NCBI RefSeq assembly: GCF_000144625.1
Contig: NC_014376.1
Location: forward strand, 4,364,501 to 4,428,500
Direction: 5' to 3'
DNA: 64,000 nt
Source of the DNA: [Clostridium] saccharolyticum WM1
GTDB lineage: Bacteria > Bacillota > Clostridia > Lachnospirales > Lachnospiraceae
The notes beneath the pieces were generated by a model. That model had not been told where the DNA came from. It saw nothing but the letters and a program-made list of their open reading frames with translations, and made no database searches. Positions within the stretch are counted from its first letter, which is position 1, and each line of letters opens with the position of its first letter. This document shows, in pieces, positions 4,444-19,640 of the stretch. The translations under genes and the position numbers were made by a program.

Positions 4444-4546
4444 TTATTTATACATTGTTTATATTTTTTTTATAATATTGAGTGAGAATTTCAAAAAAAG
4501 CACAACATTTCAGAGGGGACAAAATTTTAAAAGGAGTGACAATCGT

Positions 4547-5023: not shown

Positions 5024-5117
5024 AAGCACTTGTTAAGGGTCATGGAGATGGAGAAGTATCAGACCCCAAACTCTGTGTGCATAGCTTTATGCCTCGTAAC
5101 CCACAGCAATGATGATG

Positions 5118-5143
5118 AAAACCGCAGGTTTCATCTGCGGTTC
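5118..5143 (+). other. Hairpin between IIB and IIC
   Basis: An 8-bp perfect stem (AACCGCAG 5120-5127 with CTGCGGTT 5135-5142) and a 7-base loop stand about 20 bases before the IIC start. No U run follows, so it is not a terminator; an mRNA processing or stability element is likely. Confidence 0.5.
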
Positions 5144-5165
5144 ATAATAAAAAGGAGGGTTTTTT

Positions 5166-5948
5166 ATGCAAATCACTTTAATCCAGGGGATTTTGCTGGC
5201 CTTACTGGCCTTTATCTGTGCCTGTGATGCCTGCTGGGAAGCCTTTTTCTGGTTCCGCCCCATCGTTGTCGCATTTTTCGCCGGAATTATCCTGGGCGAT
5301 GTGCAGGTTGGCTTAGCCGCCGGTGCTGTTGCAGAACTTTCTTATCTGGGACTGCTGACCGTAGGCGGTACGGTTCCCCCTGATCCCCTTATGGCAGGTA
5401 TGATGACAACGGTCATCGCATTCACCACCGGCCAGAGTGCAGAAACGGCTCTGGGTCTGTCATTGCCCTTCGCTTTGCTGGCGCAGTGGGTAGGAATTGT
5501 CTGCAACACCACGTTCGCAGGTTTTTTACGTCCTCTGGATCGTGCTTGCGAGAACGCAGATACGAAGAAATTTACACAGATCGTTATCCTGGGAATTGTA
5601 ATAAAAGCGGGAATCTACGCTTTAATCACATTTCTGTCTGCCTTTGCTCTCCAGACCCAGATCGCAGGATTTGTCAACATGTTCCCGGAATGGCTGATTC
5701 ACGGGTTCGAGATATCCGGCGGCCTGCTTCCTGCAGTCGGTCTTACCCTGCTACTCGTTGTCATGCTGAAAAAGCAGAACGTGGCATATCTTTTTATTGG
5801 CTTTTTAATGATGACATTCTTAAAGCTGGGCAATATCCTTCCGGTAGCTATCGCAGGAATCGCTGTTGCATTCATTGGTTATCTCAATGATGAAACCATC
5901 AAAAAGAATGCCGTAACGGTAGGAGGTGCTGACGATGACGGTATCTAG
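5166..5948 (+). CDS. PTS system mannose-family IIC component
   Basis: 260 residues, very hydrophobic with about seven to eight membrane spans. It fits the sorbose-specific IIC family (PF03609), including the Gly-rich GDVQVGLAAGAVAELSYLG region near residues 42-60. With IID it forms the sugar-translocating membrane part. AAAAGGAGGG precedes the ATG. Its 3' end overlaps the IID start by 14 bases, implying translational coupling. Sugar specificity cannot be read from sequence; neighbours suggest a glycated amine or related amino sugar. Confidence 0.92.
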   Translation: MQITLIQGILLALLAFICACDACWEAFFWFRPIVVAFFAGIILGDVQVGLAAGAVAELSYLGLLTVGGTVPPDPLMAGMMTTVIAFTTGQSAETALGLSLPFALLAQWVGIVCNTTFAGFLRPLDRACENADTKKFTQIVILGIVIKAGIYALITFLSAFALQTQIAGFVNMFPEWLIHGFEISGGLLPAVGLTLLLVVMLKKQNVAYLFIGFLMMTFLKLGNILPVAIAGIAVAFIGYLNDETIKKNAVTVGGADDDGI

Positions 5949-6726
5949 AAATAAATTAACAAAAAAAGATATCAACCAGATGAGCCTGCTTTCCATACTG
6001 GAACAGTCCTGCTTCAGCTTTGAGCGCATGCAGGCTCCAGGCTTCTGCCTTGGATTGCTTCCCGGATTAAAGAAGATTTACGGCAGCCAGAAGGAAGAAA
6101 TCGCGGATGCCATGAAAAACAACATGGACTTTATTAACACCGAGCCCCATATGGCCACCTTCCTTCAGGGTCTCGTCCTTTCCCTGGAAGAAAACGGCCA
6201 GGACAGAGCCCTGATCAAAAATATTAAAACCGGTTTGTTCGGTCCTCTTGCAGGGCTGGGAGACGCTATCTTCTGGTTCACCCTGCTTCCTATATCGGCG
6301 GCGATCTGCTGTTCCCTTGCCAGCGGAGGCTCTGTACTGGGTCCCATCCTTTATATTGCCATCTGGTTTTTAGGTGCCATATCAAGACTGTGGTTCGGCC
6401 GTATGGGATATAACATGGGTGTGGGAGCCGTTGATTTAATCAGCTCCAACGCCAGTGCCATTACAAAGGCCGCCGGTATTCTGGGTATGATGGTAGTAGG
6501 TGGTCTGATACCAAGCTACGTATCTCTTCATTTTGCTGAAACGCTGGTTGCTCCCGGCGGCGTATCCATACAGGCGATCTTCGATTCCATTATGCCCAAC
6601 ATACTGCCTCTTGGGTTTGTATTTACCCTATACTGGCTGTTTAAGAAAAAGCATGTAAATACGCTGATGCTGATTATATTCATCATTCTGGTATCAATCG
6701 TATTGTCTTTCTTTAAAATCATGTAA
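5935..6726 (+). CDS. PTS system mannose-family IID component
   Basis: 263 residues from the ATG at 5935, chosen because AGGAGG (5921-5926) lies 8 bases upstream; a GTG at 5926 is in frame but overlaps that site. It matches the IID family (PF03613): an N-terminal cytoplasmic part with MQAPGFCLGLLPGLKKIY and EPHMATFLQGLVLSLEE, then membrane spans with GPLAGLGDAIFW. IID pairs with IIC in the membrane. It overlaps the IIC gene by 14 bases and is followed by a strong hairpin before the SIS gene. Confidence 0.93.
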   Translation: MTVSRNKLTKKDINQMSLLSILEQSCFSFERMQAPGFCLGLLPGLKKIYGSQKEEIADAMKNNMDFINTEPHMATFLQGLVLSLEENGQDRALIKNIKTGLFGPLAGLGDAIFWFTLLPISAAICCSLASGGSVLGPILYIAIWFLGAISRLWFGRMGYNMGVGAVDLISSNASAITKAAGILGMMVVGGLIPSYVSLHFAETLVAPGGVSIQAIFDSIMPNILPLGFVFTLYWLFKKKHVNTLMLIIFIILVSIVLSFFKIM

Positions 6727-6755
6727 CTCACGGAAGGAATCACATAGAATTCTGC

Positions 6756-6809
6756 CGGGGGCCGTACAGGAAGATCTGGAAGAATCAACCATCTCCTGTA
6801 TGGCCCCTG
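6756..6809 (+). other. Long intercistronic hairpin after IID
   Basis: Arms 6756-6771 and 6794-6809 pair over 16 bp with two G-U wobbles around a 22-base loop. No U run follows, so transcription should continue into the SIS gene at 6833. Such stems commonly protect or separate upstream and downstream parts of operon mRNA. Confidence 0.55.
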
Positions 6810-6832
6810 CGCATTTGAAAGGGAAATCAGCA

Positions 6833-7831
6833 ATGATTAATTTTAATGAAGAACAGATGATAAAAAACGGAGAAATCATATACAGGCAAAGAGAATCCAT
6901 CGAAAAAATCTCAGATACCCTGGCAAAAGAAGGATTTGACCTTTTATTCTTCACCTCCTCCGGCGGGTCCATGGCCATGATGCAGCCCTTTGAAATGTGG
7001 ATCAACCAGAAATCCGCCATACCCACAGGCTCTATGATCTCAGCGGATTTCACAGCCATGGGGTGTAACCGGATCACGGACAAAACCGTTGCATTCCTTA
7101 CCTCAAAATCCGGGGATACTCCGGATACGGTAGAAGCCGCCCGTTTCTTAAAGCAGAGAGGAGTGCGGCTGGTATCTGTGACCGGCGTCCCGGACTCCCC
7201 TCTTGAGAAGCTCTCGGATTTTAACATCACTTATGGAGAGGGACGCCCTCAGGAGCTGGTTTTTTATCTGCTCATAGGCCGCCTCCTTTGGAACCAGGGG
7301 GCGTTCCCGGACTATCCTAGGTTTGCAGAAGAACTGAAACACCTGGCAGCCGCCCTTGTGGAGGTCCGGAAACAGGCAGATCCATTCTGTCTGGAATATG
7401 CAAAAAAATATTGCAGGGAGCCGTATCATATCTGGATCGGCTCCGGGGATCTCTGGCCCATGGCATACTCTTATTCCATGTGTACCCTGGAGGAATCCCT
7501 GTGGCTTAAAACAAAGTCCGTAAGCTCGCCGGAATTTTTCCATGGTACCCTTGAGCTATTGGAGGATGATGTATGCGTAACACTTCTGGTCACAGAAGGG
7601 CCTACCAGGTTTCTGGATGAAAAGGTAAAGGCATTTGCCAGACAGCACACACACAAATTAACCTGCTTTGACGCAGGAGATTACGCCCTTCCGGGAATCA
7701 GTGCTTCCTTCCGAAGCCTGCTTTCCCCCGTGATCATGGCAGCCGTGCTCCAGCGGGTGAGTAAAAATATGGAAGCAGTTACCGGCCATTCCCTGGATAT
7801 CAGACGGTATTACAGGAAAGGCGGCTATTAA
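6833..7831 (+). CDS. frlB: FrlB-like SIS-domain 6-phosphate deglycase
   Basis: 332 residues from the ATG at 6833, which has only a weak GGGAA site; an in-frame upstream ATG at 6800 lies inside the hairpin arm. It has two SIS domains, with LFFTSSGGSMAMM (about 38-50), AFLTSKSGDTPDTVEA (about 86-101) and SSPEFFHGTLELLEDD in the second half. The C-terminus DIRRYYRKGGY resembles the DERRYY tail of E. coli FrlB as I recall it. FrlB cleaves fructoselysine-6-phosphate to glucose-6-phosphate and lysine. It lies between PTS IID and a FrlD-like kinase, consistent with Amadori-product use; the precise substrate is inferred. Confidence 0.75.
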   Translation: MINFNEEQMIKNGEIIYRQRESIEKISDTLAKEGFDLLFFTSSGGSMAMMQPFEMWINQKSAIPTGSMISADFTAMGCNRITDKTVAFLTSKSGDTPDTVEAARFLKQRGVRLVSVTGVPDSPLEKLSDFNITYGEGRPQELVFYLLIGRLLWNQGAFPDYPRFAEELKHLAAALVEVRKQADPFCLEYAKKYCREPYHIWIGSGDLWPMAYSYSMCTLEESLWLKTKSVSSPEFFHGTLELLEDDVCVTLLVTEGPTRFLDEKVKAFARQHTHKLTCFDAGDYALPGISASFRSLLSPVIMAAVLQRVSKNMEAVTGHSLDIRRYYRKGGY

Positions 7832-7849
7832 CAGGAAGGAGTCAACGAA

Positions 7850-8683
7850 ATGAAATTTCTCGGTTTAGGCGATAACGTAATTGATTATTACGTAAACACC
7901 AGGGACATGCATCCCGGCGGAAATGCGGTCAATACAGCCGTTCATGCGTCCAGGCTGGGCGCTGAGTCCGCTTATCTGGGCAATCTGGCTGATGATAAAC
8001 TGTCAGATGTGGTCCGCAAGGCACTTAAGGAGAATAAGGTAGATTTTTCCCACTGCACAACAGTAAAAGGAAGCACTACTAAATGCTGTGATTACACCGT
8101 GACCGGCGGAGAACATCACTTTGCCGGAATCAGGCTTGGGGAAAACTGGTCCGGCCCTATGACTCTGGACACCCACCATCTTAATTATATGGAAGCTTTT
8201 CATATCATCCACAGCTGCTGCAACGCAAAAATGGAGTCTGAAATCTCCAAGGCCGGCCGCCTTCCGGCTTTGCTTACCTATGATTTTTCTGTAAAGGAAA
8301 CATACAGGACGGATGAGTATCTGGCCCTTGTATGTCCCTGGTTGGACCTTGCCCTGTTTTCCTGCCATCCCATGGAGGAAAAGGATGCCTTTCATTTCTG
8401 CCGGAAAATCCACGGCCGGGGCGCAAAGCATGTCCTTCTCACTATGAGCCAGGCAGGCTCCTTTGTATCCAATGGGGAGATCATGGTAAAAGGGGATGCC
8501 TTTCATGTGGAGCCGGTGGACACCATGGGAGCCGGTGATGCCTTTCTCACTGCCTTTCTCATAAGCCTTGCAGGCCAGGGCTGGAAAAAAGGCAGCCGGA
8601 TGGGGAAACAATCCTTAAAAAAGGCCCTGGAAGACGGCGCCCGCTACGCGGCAGAAAACTGCATGGTAAATGGCGGCTTCTGA
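7850..8683 (+). CDS. frlD: PfkB-family kinase, FrlD-like
   Basis: 277 residues with AGGAAGGAG before the ATG. Ribokinase fold: N-terminal LGDNVIDYY and GGNAVNTAVHASRLG substrate-side motif (about 24-38), and the C-terminal DTMGAGDAFLTAFL anion-hole and catalytic base motif (Asp in GAGD, about 229). The N-terminus resembles fructoselysine 6-kinase FrlD as I recall it. A kinase together with a phosphorylating PTS is unusual: the PTS would already deliver a 6-phosphate. It may act on sugar entering by another route or on a pathway intermediate. It lies 18 bases after frlB. Confidence 0.75.
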   Translation: MKFLGLGDNVIDYYVNTRDMHPGGNAVNTAVHASRLGAESAYLGNLADDKLSDVVRKALKENKVDFSHCTTVKGSTTKCCDYTVTGGEHHFAGIRLGENWSGPMTLDTHHLNYMEAFHIIHSCCNAKMESEISKAGRLPALLTYDFSVKETYRTDEYLALVCPWLDLALFSCHPMEEKDAFHFCRKIHGRGAKHVLLTMSQAGSFVSNGEIMVKGDAFHVEPVDTMGAGDAFLTAFLISLAGQGWKKGSRMGKQSLKKALEDGARYAAENCMVNGGF

Positions 8684-8700
8684 TGCCGTTTCAAGCACCG

Positions 8701-8766
8701 CGGATATCCATCACGATATCCGTCAAAATAACGTTGCAGGTAAAATCACCCAATGGTATACTGTAC
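8701..8766 (+). promoter_or_regulatory. Hairpin and candidate operator before GntR gene
   Basis: CGGATATC (8701-8708) and GATATCCG (8715-8722) form a perfect 8-bp stem. Further on, TGGTATACTGTACAAAT (8753-8769) contains the palindrome GTATAC, the type of core found in operators of GntR/UTRA regulators. Autoregulation is inference. Confidence 0.35.
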
Positions 8767-8797
8767 AAATGGGATTTCCCTGCCATGGAGGTGTATC

Positions 8798-9547
8798 ATG
8801 AAGTTTGGATTTATACAAATTGATAAATACAGTCCGGTTCCATTGTACGAGCAGCTAAAAGCCTGCCTGATCAAGGCCATCCGAAACGGAACCCTGACTC
8901 CCGGACAAAAGCTGCCCACGGAAGATGAAATATGCCGCAAATTCAGCATATCCCGTCCTGTGGTCCGGCAGGCTTACGGGGAACTGGACAAACTTGGGCT
9001 GCTGGAGAGGAAACGGGGCTCCGGAAGCTTTGTAAAGTCAAATACAGACCGGGGAGTATTTTTGATGCAGCTTGTCAGCTACAGTGAGGAGCTGGCTATG
9101 ATTGGCATGAAGGCCGGAACTGATTTAAAAAAGAAGGAAGTGGCTCCCTATCATGCACAGATATACGAAAAACTCCGTTTAGAGCCTCAGCAGCACTGCC
9201 TTCATCTGGAGCGCATGCGCTATGCGGACAAACGCCCTTTTACCTATATTGAAAATTTTGTTCCCATGGACCTGTTCCCTGGAATTGAAAACCATGATTA
9301 TGGGACAGAATCTCTTTATCATATTATGAAGGATGGGTATGGCATTTATCCGGTAAAGGCGGTGAGATCCATACGGGCGGAAATCATCGATCCCGCTCAG
9401 GCACGGCTGTTTCACATTGAGAGAGGATCTCCGGTCCACATGCTGGAAAGCATCGCTTACGACCAGTATGACCGCCCCATAGACTACAGCATAGAAACAT
9501 ATCCAGGTAACACACACCGGTTTGACTTTGTTGTATACAGAGATTAA
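8798..9547 (+). CDS. GntR/HutC-family regulator with UTRA domain
   Basis: 249 residues from the ATG at 8798, with GGAGGTG 5 bases upstream. The N-terminal winged helix (about 10-75) has PLYEQLKACLIKAI, LPTEDEICRKFSISRPVVRQ and ERKRGSGSFV. The C-terminal UTRA ligand-binding domain (about 90-245) ends in IDYSIETYPGNTHRFDFVVYRD. Members bind sugar-phosphates or amines and repress adjacent uptake genes. Its position inside the operon, between the kinase and IIA, makes it the likely regulator of the locus. Confidence 0.9.
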   Translation: MKFGFIQIDKYSPVPLYEQLKACLIKAIRNGTLTPGQKLPTEDEICRKFSISRPVVRQAYGELDKLGLLERKRGSGSFVKSNTDRGVFLMQLVSYSEELAMIGMKAGTDLKKKEVAPYHAQIYEKLRLEPQQHCLHLERMRYADKRPFTYIENFVPMDLFPGIENHDYGTESLYHIMKDGYGIYPVKAVRSIRAEIIDPAQARLFHIERGSPVHMLESIAYDQYDRPIDYSIETYPGNTHRFDFVVYRD

Positions 9548-11044: not shown

Positions 11045-11494
11045 CTAATTAACCTGCATTCTGTAATTGATCCCATAAGCAAAAGATCCTGTTAGAAGAA
11101 CATTTGCAATATCAGCAATAGGTTGTGCAAATAACACACCCTGAACACCGAAGATTCTTGATAAAATAAGGACGAGGGGGATAAAGAACACGCCCTGGCG
11201 GCATATGCTTAAAATACCTCCCTGTTTTGATTTTCCCAACGCCAGAAAGAAGGTGCCATAAACCAACTGAAAGCCTAATGTCACAAATACAATACTATTT
11301 AATATAAGTGCTTCTTGGCCTACTTTCATAACAAAGGCATCATTCTTACTAAACAGCTCAATGATATTCCTTGAGAAAACAATAATTTCTATGGTAACAA
11401 AGGCGCAAAAGCCGCTTGTCAGTTTCAATGCAAACCTTTTAGCCTGTTCCACTCTTTCCCAATTCCCGGCTCCATAATTATATCCCACAAACGG
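11045..11494 (-). pseudogene. C-terminal remnant of a MATE efflux transporter
   Basis: About 149 codons encode the last four membrane spans of a MATE transporter. They begin at PFVGYNYGAGNWERV, a conserved mid-protein motif, and end GINYRMQVN; a full protein has about 450 residues. A TAG stop directly precedes the fragment, so the first two thirds are gone. The breakpoint (11494) lies about 80 bp outside the att site of the integrated element, so the loss may relate to an earlier integration or deletion at this tRNA locus. Not expected to be functional. Confidence 0.8.
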
Positions 11495-11520
11495 CTAAAC
11501 TTTAAGTACTTTTATTTATG

Positions 11521-11559
11521 TAAATTAAATGAGGATTCCCGAAACCCGGAAACCCTCAT
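11521..11559 (-). terminator. Former terminator of the tRNA-Gly transcript
   Basis: On the leftward strand a 13-bp stem (11559-11547 with 11541-11529, two G-U pairs) and 5-base loop are followed by TTTAATTT. It lies just beyond the left att copy, where the tRNA-Gly transcript would have ended before the element separated the two. Confidence 0.65.
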
Positions 11560-11576
11560 AAATGCTACGTCTTCTT

Positions 11577-11602
11577 AAGAGCGCGAGACGGGACTCGAAC
11601 CC
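11577..11602. repeat. Left attachment site (26-bp direct repeat)
   Basis: Identical over 26 bases to 19565-19590. It is the T-arm and acceptor 3' part of tRNA-Gly(GCC), not followed by the rest of a tRNA, as expected for the chromosomal tRNA 3' end displaced by integration. Nearby at 11660-11680 stands a doubled CTCTACCCC motif that also occurs by the right end. Confidence 0.88.
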
Positions 11603-11680
11603 TATCAATACCCTAAAAACATCGTAAATACAGGAGGTTTGAGAGTTGCTCTTCTGTACTCTACCCCATACTCTACCCCC

Positions 11681-11741
11681 ATATTTAGACTTTAAAAAGG
11701 AAAGCTGTCAAGGGTTTCGCAGGAACAGTGCTTGCCCTTGA
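11681..11741. repeat. 61-bp repeat, left copy flanking defence cassette
   Basis: About 95% identical to 14053-14113 and in the same orientation. It contains a nested inverted structure: outer TCAAGGG / CCCTTGA and inner GTTYC-GCA-GGAAC, with wobble-preserving differences between copies. Weaker similarity (for example TTTCCCCTT) continues for roughly 80 more bases. The stretch from here to 11992 holds no gene I can support. Confidence 0.85.
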
Positions 11742-11992
11742 CCTATCCGAAAAAATTCTAGTTATTCCAAAAACGGAAACGCTTAAGTAAGATACTTTCC
11801 CCTTATTAATATATTTCCTAAATATACATAATGAGTAATTCAATTTTGCTGACATAAGAATAATATCTTATGGATAACACAAAATTGATTCAGATTCCCC
11901 TTTTGTTTATGCAATATTCTGTATTATAATTCACGTGTCTCACAACTCTACTTAAGCAAAATGGAGCTAAACATCTACTTTTACTTGATTCT

Positions 11993-12625
11993 TTATAGCG
12001 CGGTCTTTAAATATGTTTGATGAGTATATCCAGTTTCGATAATAAGTAAGATTTCTGTCATCAAATCAATGATAAGTTTTGAAAAAAATTCAATGTCTTT
12101 TACTGTTATGGGTATTGAATCATCACCGTGTGAAATACTATTTCTAAATTTTAAAAATTTACCTAAACCTGTTTTAAATGAATCTGGTAATTGTTCAAGA
12201 TTAAAATATTGTAATATTTCATTCATCACAGAAAAATCAATATTCGACTTTGTGGGCAACTTATCAGTAATTACTAATGGCTGGCATATTGTGTTTTGAT
12301 AAAGGGATATAAACTCTTTCTTTGTTTTATAATTTGTTCTTGGATTTTCCAACTTCAATTTGTCAATACTTGATAAAGCATGCGTCAACAAATTAATATC
12401 CACATCATTTATTGGAATTGCTAAGCTATTAATCTCTTTAATATAAAGCCCAAAAGCTCTTTTCACAAATCCTTCCCACAACGCATACATTGAAGGTATA
12501 GAATACTTAATTAATAATTGCTTATGTTCTGTAGGCAAACGATACCGCAAAGGAATTGTTTTCAAACTTGCAAGCTCGGACATTCTCCAATTTATATCAT
12601 TATTTATCTCATCAATGAATGACAT
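11993..12625 (-). CDS. HEPN-domain protein (MAE_28990-like)
   Basis: 210 residues from the ATG at 12625, which has AAAGG 9 bases upstream; a TTG at 12643 is in frame but overlaps DUF262. The protein is all-helical in appearance. Near its C-terminus, FRNSISHGDDSI (about residues 168-179) carries the R-x4-H motif of HEPN ribonucleases, and the overall pattern (N-terminal YSIPSMYALWEGFVKRAF) resembles MAE_28990/MAE_18760-type HEPN proteins. HEPN proteins often cut RNA in anti-phage or toxin systems. It begins 4 bases after the DUF262 stop, so the two are translated together. Confidence 0.75.
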   Translation of the reverse strand: MSFIDEINNDINWRMSELASLKTIPLRYRLPTEHKQLLIKYSIPSMYALWEGFVKRAFGLYIKEINSLAIPINDVDINLLTHALSSIDKLKLENPRTNYKTKKEFISLYQNTICQPLVITDKLPTKSNIDFSVMNEILQYFNLEQLPDSFKTGLGKFLKFRNSISHGDDSIPITVKDIEFFSKLIIDLMTEILLIIETGYTHQTYLKTAL

Positions 12626-12629
12626 TATT

Positions 12630-13697
12630 TTAAGCCTTTCCAAATAGTTGCTTCGAATACTGAATGCGTTTTTTTACTCTATCAACAGAGTTGTTCCCTC
12701 CAGATCTTGTCAATCTACGATAAACATCATTTGTTTTTATTTGATTGATTTTTTCTTTGATTGAACTAGTTTCTACTTCTGTATATAAATCTATATTTTC
12801 TGCTATTCCTATCATTGTAGTATCATAAACGGCCGTAGAAAACAGTAGGCTGTTACTATACTTGAATGTTTGTTTGCCTAATGGTGCCAAAACATCAACC
12901 GTTCTTGTAAATATCTTTCGATAAGTATCATAATCAAAGTTACTGTTTTCTGCTGCTGATTTCATAAAATCTGTCATATGCTGAGCGATGCTCTTATGAA
13001 CAGAAACTTCTCCATAAAGAGACATAAACCTCAATACCAATTCTTCCAAATAAAGCTCATTTTTTTGTTGTTGAGTAATATCAACAATACTTATAAATCT
13101 TTCGTTGGAAGCAAGCTCTTTTAAGAAATCATTAAAAACAGAAGAAGTTTCTCTAAATAGTGAATTCCTTATCTCTTGATTTGTTAACGGAGCTCCTCCT
13201 GTGTTTAAACGATTGAATAGTTCAAAACGCAAATCATATTTACTATTCCACTTTATAATTTCTACACGGCATGAAGCTCTTTTGATATTTAATTGAATTT
13301 TATATGGCAGATCAGAACAATGATACCCTTCTAATTCTTTTATCAGATCACCATCACATAAAACCCAATTGTTTTTTTCAGGCATAGTTTTTAATACACC
13401 AAAAAAAGACAATATAGTGGATAGTCTTTGTAAACCATCTACCAATTCCCAGCGGCCATTTTCATCTTCTGCCACAAATATTGGGGGTATAGGGATTCCA
13501 ATAATTATTGATTCTAAAAACCTTGCTTTTTGATAATCTGACCATCGGTATAGTCTTTGAAAACTGGGGTTAATAATTATTTCTTCTTTTTCATACATAC
13601 TCATTATCTCACCAAACGACATATCTAATTTGTCTGTTTGCAGAGTATTTCTACCTTCCTCAATTGAGGACAGTAGTTCTTCTTGACTGGATTTCAT
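12630..13697 (-). CDS. DUF262-domain protein (ParB/Srx-fold)
   Basis: 355 residues from the ATG at 13697 (AAGGAG 8 bases upstream; an ATG at 13703 is too close to it). The N-terminal DUF262 region has INPSFQRLYRWSDYQKARFL and ELVDGLQRLSTIL, the QR-W and DGxQR motifs of this nucleotide-binding/nuclease fold, and LNTGGAPLTNQEIRNSLF. The C-terminal DUF1524 HNH nuclease of GmrSD enzymes is absent. DUF262 proteins act in type IV restriction and other defence systems. Here the partner is a HEPN protein, suggesting DUF262 senses or regulates and HEPN is the effector. Activity is inferred. Confidence 0.82.
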   Translation of the reverse strand: MKSSQEELLSSIEEGRNTLQTDKLDMSFGEIMSMYEKEEIIINPSFQRLYRWSDYQKARFLESIIIGIPIPPIFVAEDENGRWELVDGLQRLSTILSFFGVLKTMPEKNNWVLCDGDLIKELEGYHCSDLPYKIQLNIKRASCRVEIIKWNSKYDLRFELFNRLNTGGAPLTNQEIRNSLFRETSSVFNDFLKELASNERFISIVDITQQQKNELYLEELVLRFMSLYGEVSVHKSIAQHMTDFMKSAAENSNFDYDTYRKIFTRTVDVLAPLGKQTFKYSNSLLFSTAVYDTTMIGIAENIDLYTEVETSSIKEKINQIKTNDVYRRLTRSGGNNSVDRVKKRIQYSKQLFGKA

Positions 13698-14052
13698 ATT
13701 CATTTCTCCTTAACTGATTTAATTTTCACTTATTATTGATAATCTTAAATAGTATACTAAGCCCTATAGTTCATTACAGCTTTTGCATTATAGTTAAGAC
13801 TAGAGCTCATTCCAATTCCCCATTTTTCTATAAATAGATTAAAGCTTAAAATCTTATAAAGATTTTATCACACTTATAGGTGATTATCTATACTTTTATA
13901 AAAGTTCATGTAATACTTTACAAAAAGCAGGAAAAAATAAAAATCAACGTTTTATAACATCTTTTATGAAATCATCTATTCTATTATTTTATCCAAAAAT
14001 ATGTAATTAAAATGGACTTTATAAACTGTCTGTACATCTGTCTCCTCCCCTA

Positions 14053-14113
14053 ATATTTAGACTTTAAAAAGGAAAGCTGTCAAGGGTTCCGCAGGAACAA
14101 CGCTTGCCCTTGA
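14053..14113. repeat. 61-bp repeat, right copy flanking defence cassette
   Basis: Second copy of the repeat at 11681-11741, with the inner arms fully complementary (GTTCC-GCA-GGAAC) inside TCAAGGG / CCCTTGA. The two copies bracket exactly the HEPN and DUF262 genes plus their upstream region. The space 13698-14052 is AT-rich, should hold the DUF262 promoter, and shows no other gene. Confidence 0.85.
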
Positions 14114-14219
14114 TGGCTTGGAGCAGAAATGAAACCATCCCCAAAATAGTAATGCCTGGACAAGATGTTTTCCCCTTGTCCAGCTTGATTACATGCATTT
14201 TGTATACATATCATTTCTA

Positions 14220-14256
14220 AAGTAAAGGACTGGCTAAACTCACCAGTCCTTTACTT
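14220..14256. repeat. 14-bp perfect inverted repeat
   Basis: AAGTAAAGGACTGG (14220-14233) and its exact complement (14243-14256) are separated by 9 bases. It could be a two-way terminator without a clear U run, or a protein or element end. The stretch 14257-14448 holds nothing else I recognise. Confidence 0.6.
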
Positions 14257-14448
14257 ACGACCTCATATCAAAAGCTTTGTAAGCTGTCTACAGGCTGACA
14301 GACACACAAAAATAGCGGAAACCCCTAGCTTGATTACATTTCTTTCAATTTTAGCACGATCTCTTCTCCAGTGCTGTTAGTGTGCTAAGTGCTAATACGA
14401 TTGTTAATATGCTTGCCATTAATCTTTTGTTTACTGTAATTACACATC

Positions 14449-15525
14449 TTAGTGAGTTCTTTCCCATTCGGCTTTAAATTCATCAAATGCTTTATTATAT
14501 TCAGCCATGTACTCATCATCTTTTAGCTTTGCTATAGGAATACCACCATCGTACTCAGGGTGGGCCTTGTGGAAATCATCAAGCATAGCATTGTATCTCC
14601 TGGACTTCTCCATTTCGATACGCCTTGCTTCTTCATACGCTTCTTGCTTTGCAACATATTCAGGCCATAAAGAGTCTGATAGTAAATACTTGGGGTCTCC
14701 GGTCAACTGAAATTCTTTAATATCAGTGTAGTATTTTACACCATCAATTACTGTCTCGATAATAAAAGTATTGTTATTAGCTGATAAATCTAATAATTCA
14801 TAACTGTTATGAACTAATCCTGCCCTATCTAAGAATAACCTAAGCAATATGTGAATGTTCCGATTCTCAAATCCGAACCAGAATGTATTTAGGTAGCTAT
14901 CGGTTCCATTTTCCTCGCAATTAATCTTGGAAGATACCATTTTTGCAATCTCTATAGCTCTGTCCCGCTCGGGTAACTGCATCAGTCTAGGCATTTCAGA
15001 GTCCATCCATGCGAAAATAGATAAAATAGCGTCCCCTTTTGGGTAATTGCTCTTCACTTTTCCAATATACATGTCAGTTATATAATCGCACGCAAATTCT
15101 CCTCCTCTGTATGTCCGTCCGTCGTATCCCAGGCGGTCGATAAATGGCATCTGTCCTCCGGTGTAGTTGTATAGGGCTAAAACGGCACGAGGCTCTAATG
15201 CGTTTGACATCTTTCCGGACCAACTTAAGTATCTGTAATCTACATAAGCATTCTTCAGGTCTGTGCCATCAGGCAATACATAGTAATAGTCATCTTGCCT
15301 CTTCTGCCACGTACCTTCGATTCTCCCCGGATATTTGTGAAATTGATAAAAATCATCTTCTGCCCATGGGTTATCTTTTCCGCCAGGTAACGTGTTCGTA
15401 TCCACTTTATGTTTCTTATGTTCAAAAGCGCTATTGACAAATGGGTTCCATCCCCCAGCATAGGAAGTTATCGTGGGTACTGTTAATGTCAAAGCTAATA
15501 ATAAAACCATGATAGATTTCTTCAT
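14449..15525 (-). CDS. Secreted protein, degenerate transglutaminase-like
   Basis: 358 residues with a clear signal peptide (KKSIMVLLLALTLTVPTITSYAG) and AAGGGAA 8 bases before the ATG. Residues about 70-95 (GTWQKRQDDYYYVLPDGTDL) look like a cell-wall-binding repeat. Residues about 205-285 resemble the second half of a transglutaminase-like domain: LRLFLDRAGL, then VIDGVKYYTDI and YLLSDSLWPEY. The usual catalytic Cys and HAW motif are not present, so enzymatic activity is doubtful. The tail from 290 is charged and helical. It lies within the integrated element as cargo. Fold assignment is inference. Confidence 0.6.
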   Translation of the reverse strand: MKKSIMVLLLALTLTVPTITSYAGGWNPFVNSAFEHKKHKVDTNTLPGGKDNPWAEDDFYQFHKYPGRIEGTWQKRQDDYYYVLPDGTDLKNAYVDYRYLSWSGKMSNALEPRAVLALYNYTGGQMPFIDRLGYDGRTYRGGEFACDYITDMYIGKVKSNYPKGDAILSIFAWMDSEMPRLMQLPERDRAIEIAKMVSSKINCEENGTDSYLNTFWFGFENRNIHILLRLFLDRAGLVHNSYELLDLSANNNTFIIETVIDGVKYYTDIKEFQLTGDPKYLLSDSLWPEYVAKQEAYEEARRIEMEKSRRYNAMLDDFHKAHPEYDGGIPIAKLKDDEYMAEYNKAFDEFKAEWERTH

Positions 15526-15631
15526 CTATAATTTCCCTTATTCTTCAAATTATTTAATCATTAATAGAATTTCAGATCAATCTATTTCAAGGGAAAAGTC
15601 CCTTAATTTTATATGTCAATTCTAATGCTTT

Positions 15632-15815
15632 TCACTGTATCCAAGCACCGTCTGCACCTACTGCATATCCATCAGGTGTTATTGTATTTACAATCATATA
15701 TCCATCACTCCCCATATAATACCATCGACCGCTTTCTTTCGACTGATACCAAGTATCCACCAGATATGAGCCATCAGGATTTATGCAGAGCAGGCTGCCT
15801 ATGATCGTGCAATAA
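15632..15815 (-). pseudogene. Fragment of a cell-wall-binding repeat protein
   Basis: Read leftward, this stop-free frame encodes WYQSKESGRWYYMGSDGYM and TPDGYAVGADGAWIQ before a TGA at 15634-15632. That is the CW_binding_1 (choline-binding) repeat pattern and a typical C-terminus. No start codon, ribosome site or N-terminal domain remains. It lies just upstream of the secreted-protein gene on the same strand and may be a relic of a related gene. The rest of 15526-15860 shows no gene. Confidence 0.6.
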
Positions 15816-15860
15816 TTGATTCACTTAATACTAGTACAGTAGAGCGCTCGTTAGTTGATT

Positions 15861-16595
15861 ATGATTACCATGAATAACGGTAATGGAATCATTCGACCGT
15901 TTGTAGATGAAACATTTTGGCAGTACGGAGCTACCAGTTGGATTGAATGGGATATGATGAAAGACGGATATCGTTTCTTATTATCAGGCCCGTCAGGATC
16001 TGGAAAAACTACCCTTGCACAAGGTTTATTAAGCAGGTTGGCACGTCATTTACCAAGATGCCAGATATATATTTTAGATTATAAAAATATTGACTTCTCC
16101 TACTTAGAGGGAGCCAAACGTTACTTTAAACATGATTCCAGTACAGATGGCTTTCTTGAATTTTACGACATCTTTGAAACACGTTTATCGTGCAATGCTA
16201 CTTATCCCTGGCTAATTCTATACATAGACGAATATCCATCATGGTTATTAAGCCTACCGTCCAAAGTACAGAAAGAATTTATGTTAAAAATGGCTAGACT
16301 TTTAAATTTAAGCAGGGCAAAACAAATTCATATCTGTGTTTCATGTCAAAAGCCATTGGCAGATTTGTTTAGTTCCGGCAGTCGTGAGAGCTTTTCACAT
16401 AATGTTCTTTTACAGGCACCAAGCAAGGAAACAGTAGGTATGCTCATGCCAAATTTTAAGGATATCATAGAGACTTGCCCTACAGGTGTCGGTTATGTTA
16501 CTGTTAATGATTCTGACTTGACAAAAATAAGAGTTCCTTTTCCCAAAAATATAGACGCTATGCATAGGGACTTATGGAACGCAGTCAACAGATAG
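15861..16595 (+). CDS. Compact FtsK/HerA-like ATPase
   Basis: 244 residues from the ATG at 15861; TTG 15855 and ATG 15870 are alternatives and none has a clear ribosome site. Walker A is LLSGPSGSGKTTLAQ (about 40-54), followed by IYILDYKNIDFSYL, and Walker B is LILYIDEYPSWL (about 118-129). Downstream, SRAKQIHICVSCQKP resembles sensor motifs of FtsK/HerA/TraG translocases. There are no membrane helices and it is far shorter than TcpA or FtsK (400-800 residues), so it is either a minimal motor or N-terminally truncated. It sits directly before the origin-like hairpins and rep, which suggests a role in moving or mobilising the element's DNA. Confidence 0.72.
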   Translation: MITMNNGNGIIRPFVDETFWQYGATSWIEWDMMKDGYRFLLSGPSGSGKTTLAQGLLSRLARHLPRCQIYILDYKNIDFSYLEGAKRYFKHDSSTDGFLEFYDIFETRLSCNATYPWLILYIDEYPSWLLSLPSKVQKEFMLKMARLLNLSRAKQIHICVSCQKPLADLFSSGSRESFSHNVLLQAPSKETVGMLMPNFKDIIETCPTGVGYVTVNDSDLTKIRVPFPKNIDAMHRDLWNAVNR

Positions 16596-16601
16596 AATTG
16601 C

Positions 16602-16674
16602 TTCAGGGCGTCCGCCATGCGGAGCGTGGCGGGCAAGCCCTGAATGCCTGAAGGTGTAGTATTAACCTTTAGGC
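16602..16674 (+). promoter_or_regulatory. Origin-like double stem-loop with CRESS nonanucleotide-like loop
   Basis: Two adjacent hairpins lie between the ATPase stop and rep. Hairpin 1: TTCAGGGC (16602-16609) with GCCCTGAA (16637-16644), continued inside by GTCCGCCA / TGGCGGGC with one wobble. Hairpin 2: GCCTGAAGGT (16646-16655) with ACCTTTAGGC (16665-16674), one wobble, and the 9-base loop GTAGTATTA. The loop region reads TAGTATTAA at 16657-16665, one base from the circovirus origin sequence TAGTATTAC and two from the geminivirus TAATATTAC, where Rep nicks after TATT. It lies 66 bases before the rep start. Confidence 0.68.
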
Positions 16675-16739
16675 ACATATGTGTCATGTGTTTTAACACT
16701 TTAATACACTAAATAAGGAAGAAAGGAATAAACGCCATT

Positions 16740-17600
16740 ATGTCAACCCGTTCAAGGCGTATGCAAATCACCTGTAACAACCCACTTGACAAGGGGTTCA
16801 CTTCTGAAAAGATTAAAGAAATTATGCAAAGATGGAAAACTGAATATTATTGCTTCTGCTATGAGACCGGAGAATCCGGAACTCATCATTTCCACCTGTA
16901 TACCAAGTTTTGTCACGCTCAGATTACAGATACAATCTCCAAAACTTTTGGAAATGCTCATATCGAGGTAATTCGCAATTCAAGCTCGATTGATAACAGA
17001 GACTACATTCGTAAGGAAGGAGCCTACCTTGATTCCGAAAAGAAAACTACGAATCACATAGAAACTTTTTATGAATCCTGTGAATGTCCCATTGATGGAA
17101 AGGAAAATCAGGGACATAGAAATGATATTGATTTAATGATTTCCCTCGTACAGGACGGAGCTTCTAACATGGAAGTGGTTCAAGCTGTTTCCTCAATGGC
17201 TCTACGTATCCCGGCTATTGAACAATACCGCCAAGCCTATTGGGAAGAAAAGGGAAGAGGATACCGTCATATGGATATTTGGTATATATATGGAAAAACC
17301 CGGACAGGAAAGACTTCATATGTTTACCAATCCCACCATTCCAGTGAAATCTATTCCGTTGTGGATTATAAAGGGAATGGCATATGGGATAAATATGATA
17401 CGGCTAGAACCAGAGTTCTTTTACTTGATGAATACCGGAGCGCACTCCCCTTTTCCCTGATTCTGGCCCTCTGTGATGGACAGCCTTTAACTCTAAATTG
17501 CCGGTATGCCAACCGGGTCTGTCTCCATGAAACCGTGTATATCGTTTCCAATATTTCATTACTGGAACAATATCCCAATATCCAAAGGGAAGAACCGTAA
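16740..17600 (+). CDS. CRESS-DNA-type Rep (HUH endonuclease + SF3 helicase), C-terminally interrupted
   Basis: 286 residues to a TAA at 17598-17600. The HUH domain has motif I MQITCNNP (8-15), motif II HHFHLY with HUH His50/His52, and motif III RDYIRKEG with catalytic Tyr89 and Lys92. A linker (about 110-180) follows, then an SF3 helicase: Walker A GKTRTGKTS (185-193), Walker B RVLLLDEY (225-232), motif C VYIVSN (266-271). This is the architecture of circovirus/geminivirus Reps and of bacterial pCRESS plasmid Reps. It nicks the origin and starts rolling-circle replication. Reading on in the same frame past the TAA gives 66 more residues of convincing Rep C-terminus. AAAGG is about 14 bases before the ATG. 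Confidence 0.85.
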   Translation: MSTRSRRMQITCNNPLDKGFTSEKIKEIMQRWKTEYYCFCYETGESGTHHFHLYTKFCHAQITDTISKTFGNAHIEVIRNSSSIDNRDYIRKEGAYLDSEKKTTNHIETFYESCECPIDGKENQGHRNDIDLMISLVQDGASNMEVVQAVSSMALRIPAIEQYRQAYWEEKGRGYRHMDIWYIYGKTRTGKTSYVYQSHHSSEIYSVVDYKGNGIWDKYDTARTRVLLLDEYRSALPFSLILALCDGQPLTLNCRYANRVCLHETVYIVSNISLLEQYPNIQREEP

Positions 17601-17801
17601 TCATGGAATGCCTTTCTTGCCCGTATCAACCATGTAAGGCATTATTATGAGATCGGGCAATACAAGGATTACACCGTAGAAGAATATCTTACCACGGAGC
17701 AGAATCCCCACCTGAAAGAATTTGAATCCTGCAATCCTGATTCTACCCCATTTAAAAACACTTCCCCTATTCCCATTCAGTTGGAGCTTCCTCCATTATA
17801 A
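17601..17801 (+). pseudogene. In-frame C-terminal tail of Rep after premature stop
   Basis: Directly after the TAA at 17598 the same frame stays open to a TAA at 17799-17801. It encodes SWNAFLARINHVRHYYEIG and an acidic/proline-rich end finishing PIQLELPPL. The SWNAFLARI stretch matches what normally follows motif C in such Reps and probably includes the arginine finger. A single base change (for example CAA, AAA or GAA to TAA) explains the interruption. Either rep is inactivated, the 286-residue form suffices, or the stop is read through. Confidence 0.72.
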
Positions 17802-17826
17802 AGTCAGGGGACACGAAAGGAACCTT

Positions 17827-17991
17827 ATGCAAAAAGTTATTATATATTTCACCCCGTCAGAATTGGCAGCCGTAAGAGGGATTTCACTATCCAGCTTGTT
17901 TGAAGCAATCAGGCAGAAACAAATCCCTTATGTTAAAACGGAGGAGGGAATGAAAATCCCGGTAACTTACTATATTGACAATGATTCTTGA
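17827..17991 (+). CDS. Small excisionase-like helix-turn-helix protein
   Basis: 54 residues from the ATG at 17827 with AAAGGA 5 bases upstream. Residues 8-36 (FTPSELAAVRGISLSSLFEA, then IRQKQIPYVKTEEG) have the MerR/HTH_17 layout of small excisionases and plasmid DNA-binding proteins. It lies between rep and the integrase, the usual place of xis in tRNA-integrating elements. It probably directs excision or controls rep/int expression. Family call is by pattern only. Confidence 0.6.
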   Translation: MQKVIIYFTPSELAAVRGISLSSLFEAIRQKQIPYVKTEEGMKIPVTYYIDNDS

Positions 17992-18184
17992 TACACTTGC
18001 AACGAAAATAAATGTACAAATATATCATAATACGAAAAAACAAACCATTGAATGACTACCATCTAAAAATACCTATTAAAAATCACACGAAAAAACAAAC
18101 TTCTGCAAGCTGTATCATCTCGAAAGGATGGTACATTTTTTGTGTAATTTTAACAATGATTCTTGCAATACAACTAGAAACAAA

Positions 18185-18213
18185 TGGACATTTTTGTCTA
18201 AATGTGATATAAT
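18185..18213 (+). promoter_or_regulatory. Promoter at the integrase start
   Basis: TGGACA (18185-18190), 17 bases, TATAAT (18208-18213), a near-consensus sigma-A promoter. Its -10 box overlaps the ATG at 18212, so transcripts from it would use a later start such as ATG 18251 (MKKQQKKEN). Two forms of integrase are therefore possible. Confidence 0.55.
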
Positions 18214-19471
18214 GGACTTAGATACAGAAGAGCTTCTCGAATTATATAACATGAAAAAACAGCAAAAAAAAGAGAATGCCATACTACAAGGGCACCTTGA
18301 AAACTTTTACCATATCTGGACAAACGACAAAGGAACCTTTCTCTCCTATCTACCTGATTCCACAAAACCAAAAGGACGAAAGCCCGTTACTGCTACCACA
18401 AAAGAAAAGCTGGAACGTAAAATCATTGACTTTTATCTGGAACTGGAACAGAACGAAAAAAATCAGAAGGAACAGGAACGGTTATCCACCATAAGAAGCA
18501 TTTATCCTTTATGGCTGAATATTAAAGGTCTGGAAACCAAGGCTACCAGCTATATCCGAAGAATTGATAATGACTGGAACGCTTATTATTCTACTGACCC
18601 TATCTTTGATCTGGATATCCGAACCTTTACAAAAGCTATTTTAAAGGAATGGGCATTGAATAAAGTAAGGGATAAGGGGCTGACTAAAACCCAATATTAT
18701 AACATGTCCATGATTATCCGTCAGTGCCTTGATTATGCCGTTGACCATGAACTGATTCCTCTTAATCCTTACAATCAATTCACTGTAGATAAAAAGCTGT
18801 TAAAGAAAGTAAAACAGCCGGAAGATGGGACACAAGTATTTCTTACCAATGAGCGTCCATTGATTCAGTGTGAAGCATGGTCAGACTTTGAGGAAAAAAA
18901 TTGCACTTCTGCTTTAGCCATTCCGCTTGCATTTCAATTAGGTGTACGCTTAGGGGAACTTATCGCAATCAAAGAAACCGATATTTCCTCAGATGGAAAG
19001 TATCTACATATTCAGCGAATGGTTCAGAAACAGGAACGACAACGTCCAGACGGGTCATGGTATCCTGCCAGATGGGAAGCCGTGGAGCATACAAAATCCT
19101 CCGCTGGTGACCGCACGATTTATCTGACCGAGGAAGCAAGACGTATCATCAAAGTGATTCTTGAATCCAACAAGGAAAACGGTTTCTATGATAATGACTT
19201 CCTGTTTATCCATGATGGAAAGCGAATCAATCCAAGAGCCGTTGATACCCGTATCCGTAAATACTGCGATCATATCAATATATCCAGTAAAAGCACTCAT
19301 AAGATACGGAAAACCTATATTTCTTCTCTTCTTGATGGCGGTATTAACATCAATGAGATACGAAAACAGGTCGGTCATGAGGACGAGCGCACCACTCTGA
19401 AAAACTACTGCTTCAACCGGAAAACCAGTGTTGAAAATGAATCCGATATGGAAAAAGCTTTAGCGGTTTAA
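18212..19471 (+). CDS. int: Tyrosine integrase
   Basis: 419 residues from the ATG at 18212 (alternatives 18128 and 18251). An N-terminal arm-binding/SAM-like part (about 90-190) precedes the catalytic domain. Visible catalytic elements: Arg in FQLGVRLGELIAI, Lys region near EHTKSSAGDR, HxxR in THKIRKTYISSLL, His in VGHEDERTTLKNYC and the following Tyr of KNYCF. It recombines the element with the tRNA-Gly 3' end. It ends 94 bases from the right att copy; the doubled motif TCTACCCC at 19473-19490 also occurs by the left att and may be its arm-binding site. Confidence 0.93.
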   Translation: MDLDTEELLELYNMKKQQKKENAILQGHLENFYHIWTNDKGTFLSYLPDSTKPKGRKPVTATTKEKLERKIIDFYLELEQNEKNQKEQERLSTIRSIYPLWLNIKGLETKATSYIRRIDNDWNAYYSTDPIFDLDIRTFTKAILKEWALNKVRDKGLTKTQYYNMSMIIRQCLDYAVDHELIPLNPYNQFTVDKKLLKKVKQPEDGTQVFLTNERPLIQCEAWSDFEEKNCTSALAIPLAFQLGVRLGELIAIKETDISSDGKYLHIQRMVQKQERQRPDGSWYPARWEAVEHTKSSAGDRTIYLTEEARRIIKVILESNKENGFYDNDFLFIHDGKRINPRAVDTRIRKYCDHINISSKSTHKIRKTYISSLLDGGININEIRKQVGHEDERTTLKNYCFNRKTSVENESDMEKALAV

Positions 19472-19564
19472 TGTCTACCCCGGTCTACCCCCCAAAAAGA
19501 CATTTTTATAAAACAAAAAAAGCTTGAATCCCTTGTAAAATCAAGGTTCCAGCTACTTATTAAA

Positions 19565-19590
19565 AAGAGCGCGAGACGGGACTCGAACCC
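19565..19590. repeat. Right attachment site (26-bp direct repeat)
   Basis: Identical to 11577-11602. It covers the 3' part of the intact tRNA-Gly gene plus three flanking bases, so the tRNA is restored after integration. Confidence 0.88.
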
Positions 19591-19640
19591 GCGACCCCGA
19601 CCTTGGCAAGGTCGTACTCCACCAACTGAGCCACTCGCGC
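19568..19640 (-). tRNA. tRNA-Gly(GCC)
   Basis: 73 bases. The acceptor pairs GCGCGAG (5' end at 19640) with CTCGCGC; the anticodon stem-loop GACCTTGCCAAGGTC gives GCC; the T-arm has GGGTTCGAGTCCC. CCA is not encoded. It is the integration target of the element to its left. Confidence 0.95.

Follow-up and report, generated by a model that had tools for sequence, protein, structure and literature searches.

A probable integrative mobilizable element, now decayed, in [Clostridium] saccharolyticum and a predicted viral-type replication origin among its bacterial relatives

Here, we describe an integrated element in the genome of [Clostridium] saccharolyticum WM1, at positions 11577–19590 of a 64,000-nucleotide stretch of contig NC_014376.1 (positions 4,364,501 to 4,428,500, or G000:C1:4364501-4428500 in our numbering). 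We refer to this whole stretch as "the window"; the host genome is a single contig of 4,662,871 bases. In our view, the integrated DNA is likely an integrative mobilizable element (IME), now decayed, of the pCRESS1-3 type, a kind related to circular Rep-encoding single-stranded DNA (CRESS) viruses, and we propose a scheme for its excision, replication, and transfer. The window element itself is an ordinary decayed member of its family. Sequence comparisons give good support for a wider point, namely that the family carries a predicted viral-type origin in bacteria: a hairpin upstream of the rep gene, with the CRESS-virus nonanucleotide in its loop.

A predicted origin hairpin upstream of rep

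In the window element, the predicted origin lies between the ATPase and Rep genes and consists of three parts:

16645..16675, plus strand: predicted origin hairpin with an 11-bp stem (single-strand DNA fold −8.5 kcal/mol, z −4.4)
16657..16665, plus strand: nonanucleotide TAGTATTAA in the loop, with a nick predicted at 16663/16664 by analogy with the nanovirus site TAGTATT*AC (PMC7826260)
16679..16691, plus strand: tandem 7-nt repeats ATGTGTC ATGTGT, candidate iterons directly 3′ of the hairpin

The CRESS-virus form of the nonanucleotide is TAGTATTAC. A second, G+C-rich hairpin (16604-16642) sits just before the origin hairpin and, by eye, is also present in relatives (e.g., L012, L045, L046, and L056).

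We surveyed the region upstream of rep in 44 distinct loci, obtained from 71 by de-duplication on the leading 300 nt of each match. This step merged the window element with a sister element in the same genome (L011; see below) and retained near-identical elements of different genomes (L057 and L077). The scan pattern was a stem of at least 8 bp, tolerating one mismatch, that encloses [TCA]A[GA]T[AG]TTA[CA]. Of the 44 loci, 30 have a hairpin with the motif in the 500 nt that precede rep, where dinucleotide shuffles lead one to expect 1.08; the same scan inside rep matched at none of the 44. The first scan placed the start of rep at the most upstream start codon, so that the hairpin of plasmid p4M fell outside the stretch and was counted as a miss; it is a hit in a wider scan. 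With that wider region and a looser first base, the hairpin accompanies 35 of the 41 Reps that reach 250 amino acids (3.15 expected) and one of three shorter Reps. Because the scan pattern was picked after the first loci had been inspected, we also made a motif-free count. The 9-mer shared by most loci upstream of rep is TAGTATTAC (25/44), followed by its shifted neighbor (24); the best-shared 9-mer inside rep occurs in nine loci.

The stems and flanks show two further trends: (i) among the 28 exact TAGTATTAC/A sites (27 loci), the 10-nt left arm takes 27 different forms, and the mean perfect stem is nonetheless 10.5 bp, as against 4.65 bp when right arms are permuted (maximum 5.82 in 500 permutations), with two sites (L059 and L074) having a perfect stem of only 4 bp that becomes longer with one mismatch; (ii) 20 of 36 loci, including the window, have tandem repeats with a period of 5–9 nt on the 3′ side of the hairpin, and one of 36 has them on the 5′ side (base shuffles: mean 1.2, at most 5). 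The features of a CRESS-type origin, i.e., a nonanucleotide-bearing hairpin near rep and adjoining iteron-like repeats, are both present. A stable hairpin between two same-strand genes might instead be a transcription terminator or regulatory hairpin. We regard this as very improbable: the loop is kept while the stems vary freely, and a terminator would need the opposite; in CRESS viruses this loop is the site of cleavage; tandem repeats flank the hairpin almost only on one side; and the hairpin is retained in p4M and in phage records despite different neighboring genes. That a viral-type origin travels with Rep in bacteria is well supported by these comparisons, and the mechanism beyond the sequence we infer.

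In the clade that contains the window element (window, L064, L065, and L066; support 100/100), the last base of the nonanucleotide is A, not C. The bridging loop of these Reps reads HIEVIRNS or HVEIIRSS, whereas at most TATTAC loci it has the form H-x-E/D-x-x-x-G (L077 being an exception). L054, which has no hairpin, also has an extra residue in this loop. The bridging loop of porcine circovirus 2 (PCV2), ARCHIEKAKG, contacts positions −6, −5, +1, and +2 of the origin (PMC7826260). The Rep bridging loop and the +2 base may have changed together in the window clade; this is a lead rather than a statistic, because it represents a single evolutionary event.

A CRESS-type Rep, truncated in the window

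The rep frame of the window element is broken in two:

16740..17600, plus strand: CRESS-type HUH-SF3 Rep, cut to 286 amino acids by an in-frame TAA (translation, Pfam, genome search)
17601..17801, plus strand: stranded C-terminal part of the rep frame, with the position of the invariant arginine (one TAA inside a full-length match)

A first-pass annotation, made from the letters of this DNA, had named an HUH-SF3 Rep. The family assignment stands, with a match to Viral_Rep (PF02407, E 2e-6) above the cut-off and one to RNA_helicase (PF00910, E 3.5e-4) just below it. What does not stand is an intact gene: the TAA at 17598-17600 ends the protein at residue 286, and the intact copy elsewhere in the genome has 353 amino acids. 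The PF02407 relaxase of an IME is present above the cut-off, but its gene is truncated in the window copy.

Searched against solved structures, a profile built from 16 Reps hits PDB chain 7lar ("ATP-dependent helicase Rep") across both nuclease and helicase (E 3e-26). We take this chain to be the PCV2 Rep. Among plasmids, the sole match to the Rep family is p4M (25% identity, E 5e-14). The kinship with pCRESS and CRESS Reps proposed in the first-pass annotation is borne out by these two matches, and the profile search kept the Rep in that kinship rather than moving it to a non-CRESS family. p4M gives its name to the p4M-like cluster, which equals pCRESS1-3 (PMC6668415). All 16 aligned Reps keep the HUH histidines, the tyrosine and lysine of motif III, the Walker lysine, and R295. 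Motif III has the form Y-x-x-K (YIRK in the window-clade Rep), unlike the YLxH of pCRESS4-8, and this combination of HUH and SF3 domains with a motif III other than YLxH is that of pCRESS1-3. An arginine pair also occupies the place of R295 in the 7lar match, and in a redondovirus Rep the arginine finger is the pair Arg291/Arg292 (PMC12981564). Because R295 sits past the stop codon, and given the redondovirus pair, the truncated window Rep has probably lost its arginine finger.

The Rep family occurs in 23 of 299 genomes of the host family (E ≤ 1e-3), in 12 of 391 genomes of a class sample, and in 5 of 398 of a phylum sample (both E ≤ 1e-10); the three samples overlap, and each contains the host genome. 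A protein database yields 180 matches at E ≤ 1e-3. On a Rep tree built without viral or other pCRESS sets, p4M sits on a very long branch.

A TcpA-like ATPase and the gene before it

Upstream of the hairpin lie two features on the same strand as rep:

15855..16595, plus strand: TcpA/FtsK-type ATPase of 246 amino acids, motor domain only (profile against PDB 6o1w, E 4e-22; Foldseek)
15782..15877, plus strand: remnant of a membrane-protein gene, its last ~32 codons (~96 bp; the blastn match begins at 15782, equal to L011:6931, and the sister gene is L011:6836-7729)

A profile of 14 relatives of this ATPase, p4M included, has as its best solved structure 6o1w, which the structure search describes as the pCW3 coupling protein TcpA, followed by EccC and FtsK chains. 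For the ATPase of the sister element, which is 85% identical to that of the window, an AlphaFold model has a mean predicted local distance difference test (pLDDT) of 88. Foldseek again places 6o1w at the top (E 1.6e-10, TM 0.71 by query), with FtsK nearly level (2.1e-10). The window ATPase is thus closest to the TcpA coupling protein by sequence profile, while by fold it is about as close to FtsK. The first-pass annotation had seen no coupling protein, which fails for the motor domain. The TcpA-type coupling protein of an IME is present as a motor domain by profile (the fold being equally near FtsK), and its putative membrane part is gone here.

In the sister element, the gene before the ATPase is intact and encodes a 297-amino-acid membrane protein (model mean pLDDT 74.5, predicted TM score 0.49). 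Its position suggests a coupling role, as does a relative, L047, in which a 411-amino-acid protein joins the motor domain to an N-terminal extension. The 107- and 127-amino-acid genes that precede it have no match among Pfam or PHROGs families.

Synteny across genera

The order TcpA-like ATPase, Rep, and integrase on one strand is found in 18 of the 44 distinct Rep loci, the window included, so that the related syntenic elements on which the first-pass annotation had staked its reading do exist. The count takes an ATPase within about 2 kb upstream of Rep and an integrase downstream; several of the loci are themselves rows of the profiles used. Close relatives are found in Hungatella effluvii, Brotaphodocola catenula, and Clostridium sp. 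AT4. The tRNA genes near the loci include those for Gly, Cys, Ser, and Lys and, for the relatives just named, those for Gly and Thr. In the free plasmid p4M, ATPase, hairpin (with the variant TAGTGTTAC), and rep follow one another in the same order.

Could the element be a purely replicative integrated pCRESS plasmid, whose ATPase serves segregation or replication and not transfer? The p4M ATPase is annotated as FtsK/SpoIIIE, the program MOB-suite types p4M as non-mobilizable, helper genes of the FA type were not found in the genome, and the ATPase fold fits FtsK as well as TcpA. Set against this, the ATPase profile is closest to a conjugation coupling protein, the gene order is repeated beside several tRNA genes in many genera, and MOB-suite is probably blind to this type of relaxase. 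We consider a replicative plasmid without transfer unlikely, and prefer a mobilizable element.

Boundaries and target tRNA gene

Three features delimit the window element:

11577..11602, no strand: attachment (att) site attL, 26-bp core; matches 19565-19590 exactly, and the similarity ends there
19565..19590, no strand: attR, within the 3′ end of the tRNA-Gly gene
19567..19640, minus strand: tRNA-Gly(gcc), target gene, intact after integration (tRNA gene search)

The ends agree with the first-pass annotation, which had described 26-bp att copies around 8 kb in a tRNA-Gly gene: the two copies are identical, do not extend on either side, and are separated by 7,988 bp, and attR overlaps the 3′ end of tRNA-Gly(gcc) on the minus strand. 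A 24-bp piece of the att core has six copies in the 4.66-Mb genome, all of them exact with up to two mismatches allowed; a reversed-pattern control gave no match. Three copies lie at sites where tRNA-Gly genes were found (800402, 3677351, and 4384067). The others are the left end of the window element (4376079) and the bounds of a second element (839123 and 847616); we read these three as att remnants. Judged from the DNA alone, an integrase of its own and att repeats at a tRNA gene are both features that the element shares with IMEs. Just outside attL, a 103-bp flank that takes in the att core (11500-11602) shares 97% identity with DNA next to the tRNA-Gly gene at 800.4 kb. A MatE-type gene (11045-11488) abuts this flank, a possible trace of an earlier element at the site.

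A sister element and the decay of the window copy

The second element, bounded by att copies at 839123 and 847616 and 8,493 bp long, lies 38.7 kb from the tRNA-Gly gene at 800.4 kb (L011; 836000-853000). Its Rep is identical to the window Rep over the 286 residues of the latter. The gene order includes proteins of 127, 107, and 297 amino acids, the ATPase (246), Rep (353), a small helix-turn-helix (HTH) protein, and an integrase (447). By eye, the stretch beside it opens with a long open reading frame (ORF) with wall-binding-type repeats and small membrane proteins. We read the sister locus as a putative tandem accretion of a prophage-like element and an IME at one tRNA gene. When viral contigs were scanned with the sister Rep, an IMG/VR contig of 45,309 bases (L084) was found to carry an identical Rep; scans of viral contigs with the L012 Rep and with the phage Reps gave no matches.

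Continuous homology between window and sister starts at 15782, in the 3′ end of the 297-amino-acid gene, and upstream of it the window has a choline-binding-repeat fragment instead. From 15781 to 16580 the two differ at 128 of 800 positions, about 16%; from 16658 to 19612 there are seven differences, all between 17360 and 19525, the stop codon included. The pair is a mosaic whose switch to near identity lies no earlier than the left arm of the hairpin, and the breakpoint interval, 16657-17360, is too broad to support a conclusion. The window element is, on sequence comparison, a decayed copy and close kin of the sister across its right part. We call it decayed because Rep stops before the conserved arginine and because the membrane-protein gene is deleted save for its tail. 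Still in place are the integrase, HTH gene, attL and attR, and the predicted origin. One might suspect that the stop codon in rep is a sequencing or assembly error and that Rep is intact, since it is a single difference between two nearly identical copies. The genome is, however, a single 4.66-Mb contig, and decay is attested independently by the missing membrane-protein gene; we consider an error improbable.

The genome contains one more related element, the third, near a tRNA-Cys gene (L012, G000:C1:198000-212000, positions 4501-9331), with open frames for Rep (336 amino acids), ATPase, membrane protein, and integrase.

The same Rep family in filamentous phage records

In a phage collection, six "bajarodino virus" records hold the Rep family, at 32–48% identity to two query Reps; the sixth shares name and length with one of the other five. 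These five (L059-L063: PQ006184, PQ006121, PQ006138, PQ006165, and PQ006124) are filed as Inoviridae, and each has both an annotated Zot gene and a TAGTATTAC hairpin preceding rep. The annotated Zot genes match Zot/protein-I families in two of two records tested, and in one of the records a protein matches a coat-protein family (phrog_1646, E 6e-5). An integrated relative, L069, has a Zot-type neighbor gene. The Rep tree intersperses phage Reps with Reps of integrated elements, in a region of weak resolution. Sequence comparison thus shows Rep with a predicted TAGTATTAC-type hairpin in three kinds of bacterial replicon: IMEs, p4M, and filamentous phages. The bacterial viruses represented by L059-L063 and L069 apparently rely on a CRESS-type replication cassette.

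These records raise the question of whether the window element is the remnant of a filamentous prophage (inovirus) with a Rep and a Zot-like morphogenesis ATPase. The shared Rep family, the Zot genes and single coat-protein match of the phage records, and the Zot-type neighbor in L069 are in its favor. The window ATPase, in contrast, matches TcpA and FtsK, and when offered both types of profile it goes to the TcpA type (E 3e-93, the ATPase being itself a row of that profile). No coat-type match was found among the scanned proteins, seven larger and seven small ORFs, some small ORFs having been left unscanned. With a TcpA/FtsK-type ATPase, and neither Zot/protein I nor coat protein among the scanned proteins, we reject the inovirus reading, to which we give almost no credence. 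A CRESS-virus capsid likewise had no match among the scanned element proteins (eight by Pfam, and the same 14 ORFs by PHROGs).

Integrase, HTH protein, and cargo

The remaining genes of the window element are as follows:

17827..17991, plus strand: small HTH protein, excisionase-like (ATG start inside ORF 17722-17991; TIGR01764 E 0.0065 and HTH_17 E 0.018, both under the cut-off)
18128..19471, plus strand: tyrosine integrase of 447 amino acids (PF00589 E 7e-20; phrog_1 E 1.8e-38)
11993..12643, minus strand: HEPN protein (MAE_28990-like), cargo, second gene of a defense-like pair (PF18737 E 1.2e-31)
12630..13703, minus strand: DUF262/GmrSD_N protein, cargo, NsnA / PD-T4-2_A-like (PF03235 E 1e-26; PADLOC NsnA 5e-60, PD-T4-2_A 4e-54)
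14449..15525, minus strand: secreted-type protein, cargo, with one weak choline-binding-like repeat (sequence; PF19085 E 0.012, below the cut-off)
15632..15760, minus strand: fragment with one choline-binding repeat (PF19085 E 9e-12)

The tyrosine integrase and the defense cassette named in the first-pass annotation are both confirmed by their family matches. Its excisionase-like protein fares less well: the small HTH gene is there, and its likeness to excisionases is a weak one, with a best match below the cut-off. The HEPN protein had no match among PADLOC models. Cargo genes for secreted-type proteins are a recurring feature within or next to these elements (window 14449-15525, L011:10019-11017, L064:2268-2894, and L012:10703-11359), and the look-alike held by the sister was recognized by eye. 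The L012 protein has wall-binding repeats, that of the sister a weak transglutaminase-like match (E 0.022), and that of L064 no family match. A repeat of ~57–69 bp with an inverted-repeat core occurs twice in the window element (11685-11741 and 14057-14113) and once, less alike, in the sister (L011, ~11471-11540); a genome search found no copy beyond these two elements.

A proposed scheme for excision, replication, and transfer

We infer the following scheme for an intact relative. First, the integrase and HTH protein would excise the DNA at the tRNA-Gly att site. Second, Rep would bind the repeats beside the hairpin just upstream of its own gene, and the motif III tyrosine would nick the loop nonanucleotide (TAGTATT|AC; TAGTATT|AA in the window). 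Third, the excised circle would undergo rolling-circle replication, powered by the SF3 helicase of Rep. Fourth, the TcpA-type ATPase, tethered at the membrane by the product of the preceding gene, would deliver the strand with its bound Rep to the mating pore that a helper conjugative element provides; the origin of replication may in this way double as an origin of transfer (oriT). For the window copy, excision may still work, and replication and transfer could be provided only in trans, e.g., from the sister. Mobilization by Rep and ATPase, as the first-pass annotation had suggested, is a sound idea for the family and is unlikely for the window copy alone, because that copy has lost the membrane-protein gene and the Rep C-terminus.

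Several observations weigh against the scheme, or against the origin on which it draws. The genome has no match to TpcC (PF12642) or MobT (PF02486), and hence no recognizable helper of the proposed type; VirD4-type matches number six. The HTH protein is only weakly excisionase-like, fold comparison cannot tell TcpA from FtsK, and the sister membrane protein has no convincing family, sequence, or fold match. The hairpin was missing in 14 of the 44 loci in the first scan and in eight in the wider one. These eight comprise two fragments (L029 and L083), a contig end (L072), two Reps with a histidine-type motif III (L036, YLTH; L035, YYTH), and three real exceptions (L048, L049, and L054). About three of the 36 wider-scan matches are expected by chance, the weakest being L053 (GAATGTTAC, 8 bp with a mismatch).

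A bacterial source for a viral origin?

From comparisons of Rep proteins, it has been argued that most eukaryotic CRESS viruses have a common ancestry with the Reps of bacterial plasmids (PMC6668415). The conserved hairpin suggests a broader idea, which we hold to be evenly balanced between right and wrong. The circovirus- or nanovirus-type origin, i.e., hairpin, TAGTATTAC loop, and iterons, could be a bacterial invention, native to IMEs, p4M, and a group of filamentous phages, that was passed to eukaryotic CRESS viruses with Rep as one cassette; the site may also serve as oriT in the elements, and in the window clade the bridging loop and the +2 base seem to have changed in concert. A shared cis-acting origin would be independent evidence for the common ancestry of bacterial plasmids and CRESS viruses. 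Many of the relatives share with small DNA viruses of animals and plants both Rep and a predicted start of replication, which bears on where the viral copying machinery came from. The question becomes one for cleavable oligonucleotides, with element Reps on viral loops and vice versa. IMEs with non-canonical relaxases also gain a concrete predicted nick site, which we did not find in the literature searched, and the hairpin offers a simple sequence signature for spotting such elements in genomes.

Comparison with known systems

The layout of the element is that of published IMEs with PF02407 "relaxases" and of integrated pCRESS plasmids, and so of a known kind. Published IMEs combine PF02407 or PF01719-PF00910 relaxases with TcpA (PMC5357655), and mobilization through TcpA helpers is suspected (PMC5357655, PMC5704250). 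The first-pass annotation, in stating that integrative elements of Firmicutes usually use Rep_trans or MOB relaxases, overlooked these. IME class 7 of streptococci is alike in its PF02407 putative relaxase related to rolling-circle initiators, its FtsK-related TcpA, its tyrosine integrase, and its compact order of TcpA, relaxase, excisionase, and integrase (PMC5357655). It differs in comprising two streptococcal examples, for which the available text describes no origin, whereas the elements here come from Lachnospiraceae and relatives, with a tRNA-Gly target, separate ATPase and membrane-protein genes, and a decayed copy. The pCW3 TcpA (PDB 6o1w) is the best match to the ATPase by profile and fold; the window motor differs in standing alone as a 246-amino-acid protein. 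Among defense systems, PD-T4-2 and Nsn (PADLOC) likewise pair a DUF262 protein with an adjoining partner gene, which here is a HEPN gene that fits no PADLOC model.

The pCRESS1-3, or p4M-like, elements share the nuclease-helicase Rep, the absence of YLxH in motif III, and a mostly integrated state, and p4M is related by sequence (PMC6668415). Outside pCRESS7 and pCRESS9, 97.5% of Reps lie in site-specifically integrated elements (PMC6668415). The chromosomal maintenance proposed in the first-pass annotation is thus nothing out of the ordinary for such elements. The published account differs in that its main text contains none of the terms FtsK, mobiliz-, stem-loop, nonanucleotide, and nonamer.

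Others have looked for the nonanucleotide in a bacterial replicon, the phytoplasma extrachromosomal DNA with a geminivirus-like Rep, and mention a variant with eight conserved nucleotides (data not shown); the available text reports that the canonical sequence was not found and contains no hairpin survey (PMC3154185). In SPHINX/BMMF plasmids, too, the viral nonanucleotide was sought and, in the portions available, not found (PMC10378824, PMC11202718), and PMC8780604 mentions it for viral Reps. A nonanucleotide hairpin in pCRESS elements or IMEs is not described in the literature we searched, by titles and the starts of abstracts among the listed matches, in mostly open papers and excluding supplements; within that scope, the origin hairpin with the CRESS-virus nonanucleotide in this element family is new.

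The closest likeness to the predicted origin is found in circoviruses and nanoviruses, whose origins have stems of 9–11 bp, loops of 10–13 nt, and the sites TAGTATT*AC (nanovirus) and AAGTATT*AC (PCV2) (PMC7826260, PMC10434203). Iterons lie upstream or on both sides of the hairpin in geminiviruses and on both sides in nanoviruses (PMC10653810). Here, by contrast, the hairpins are in bacterial chromosomes, the window clade has A for C at +2, and the repeats are mostly on the 3′ side only.

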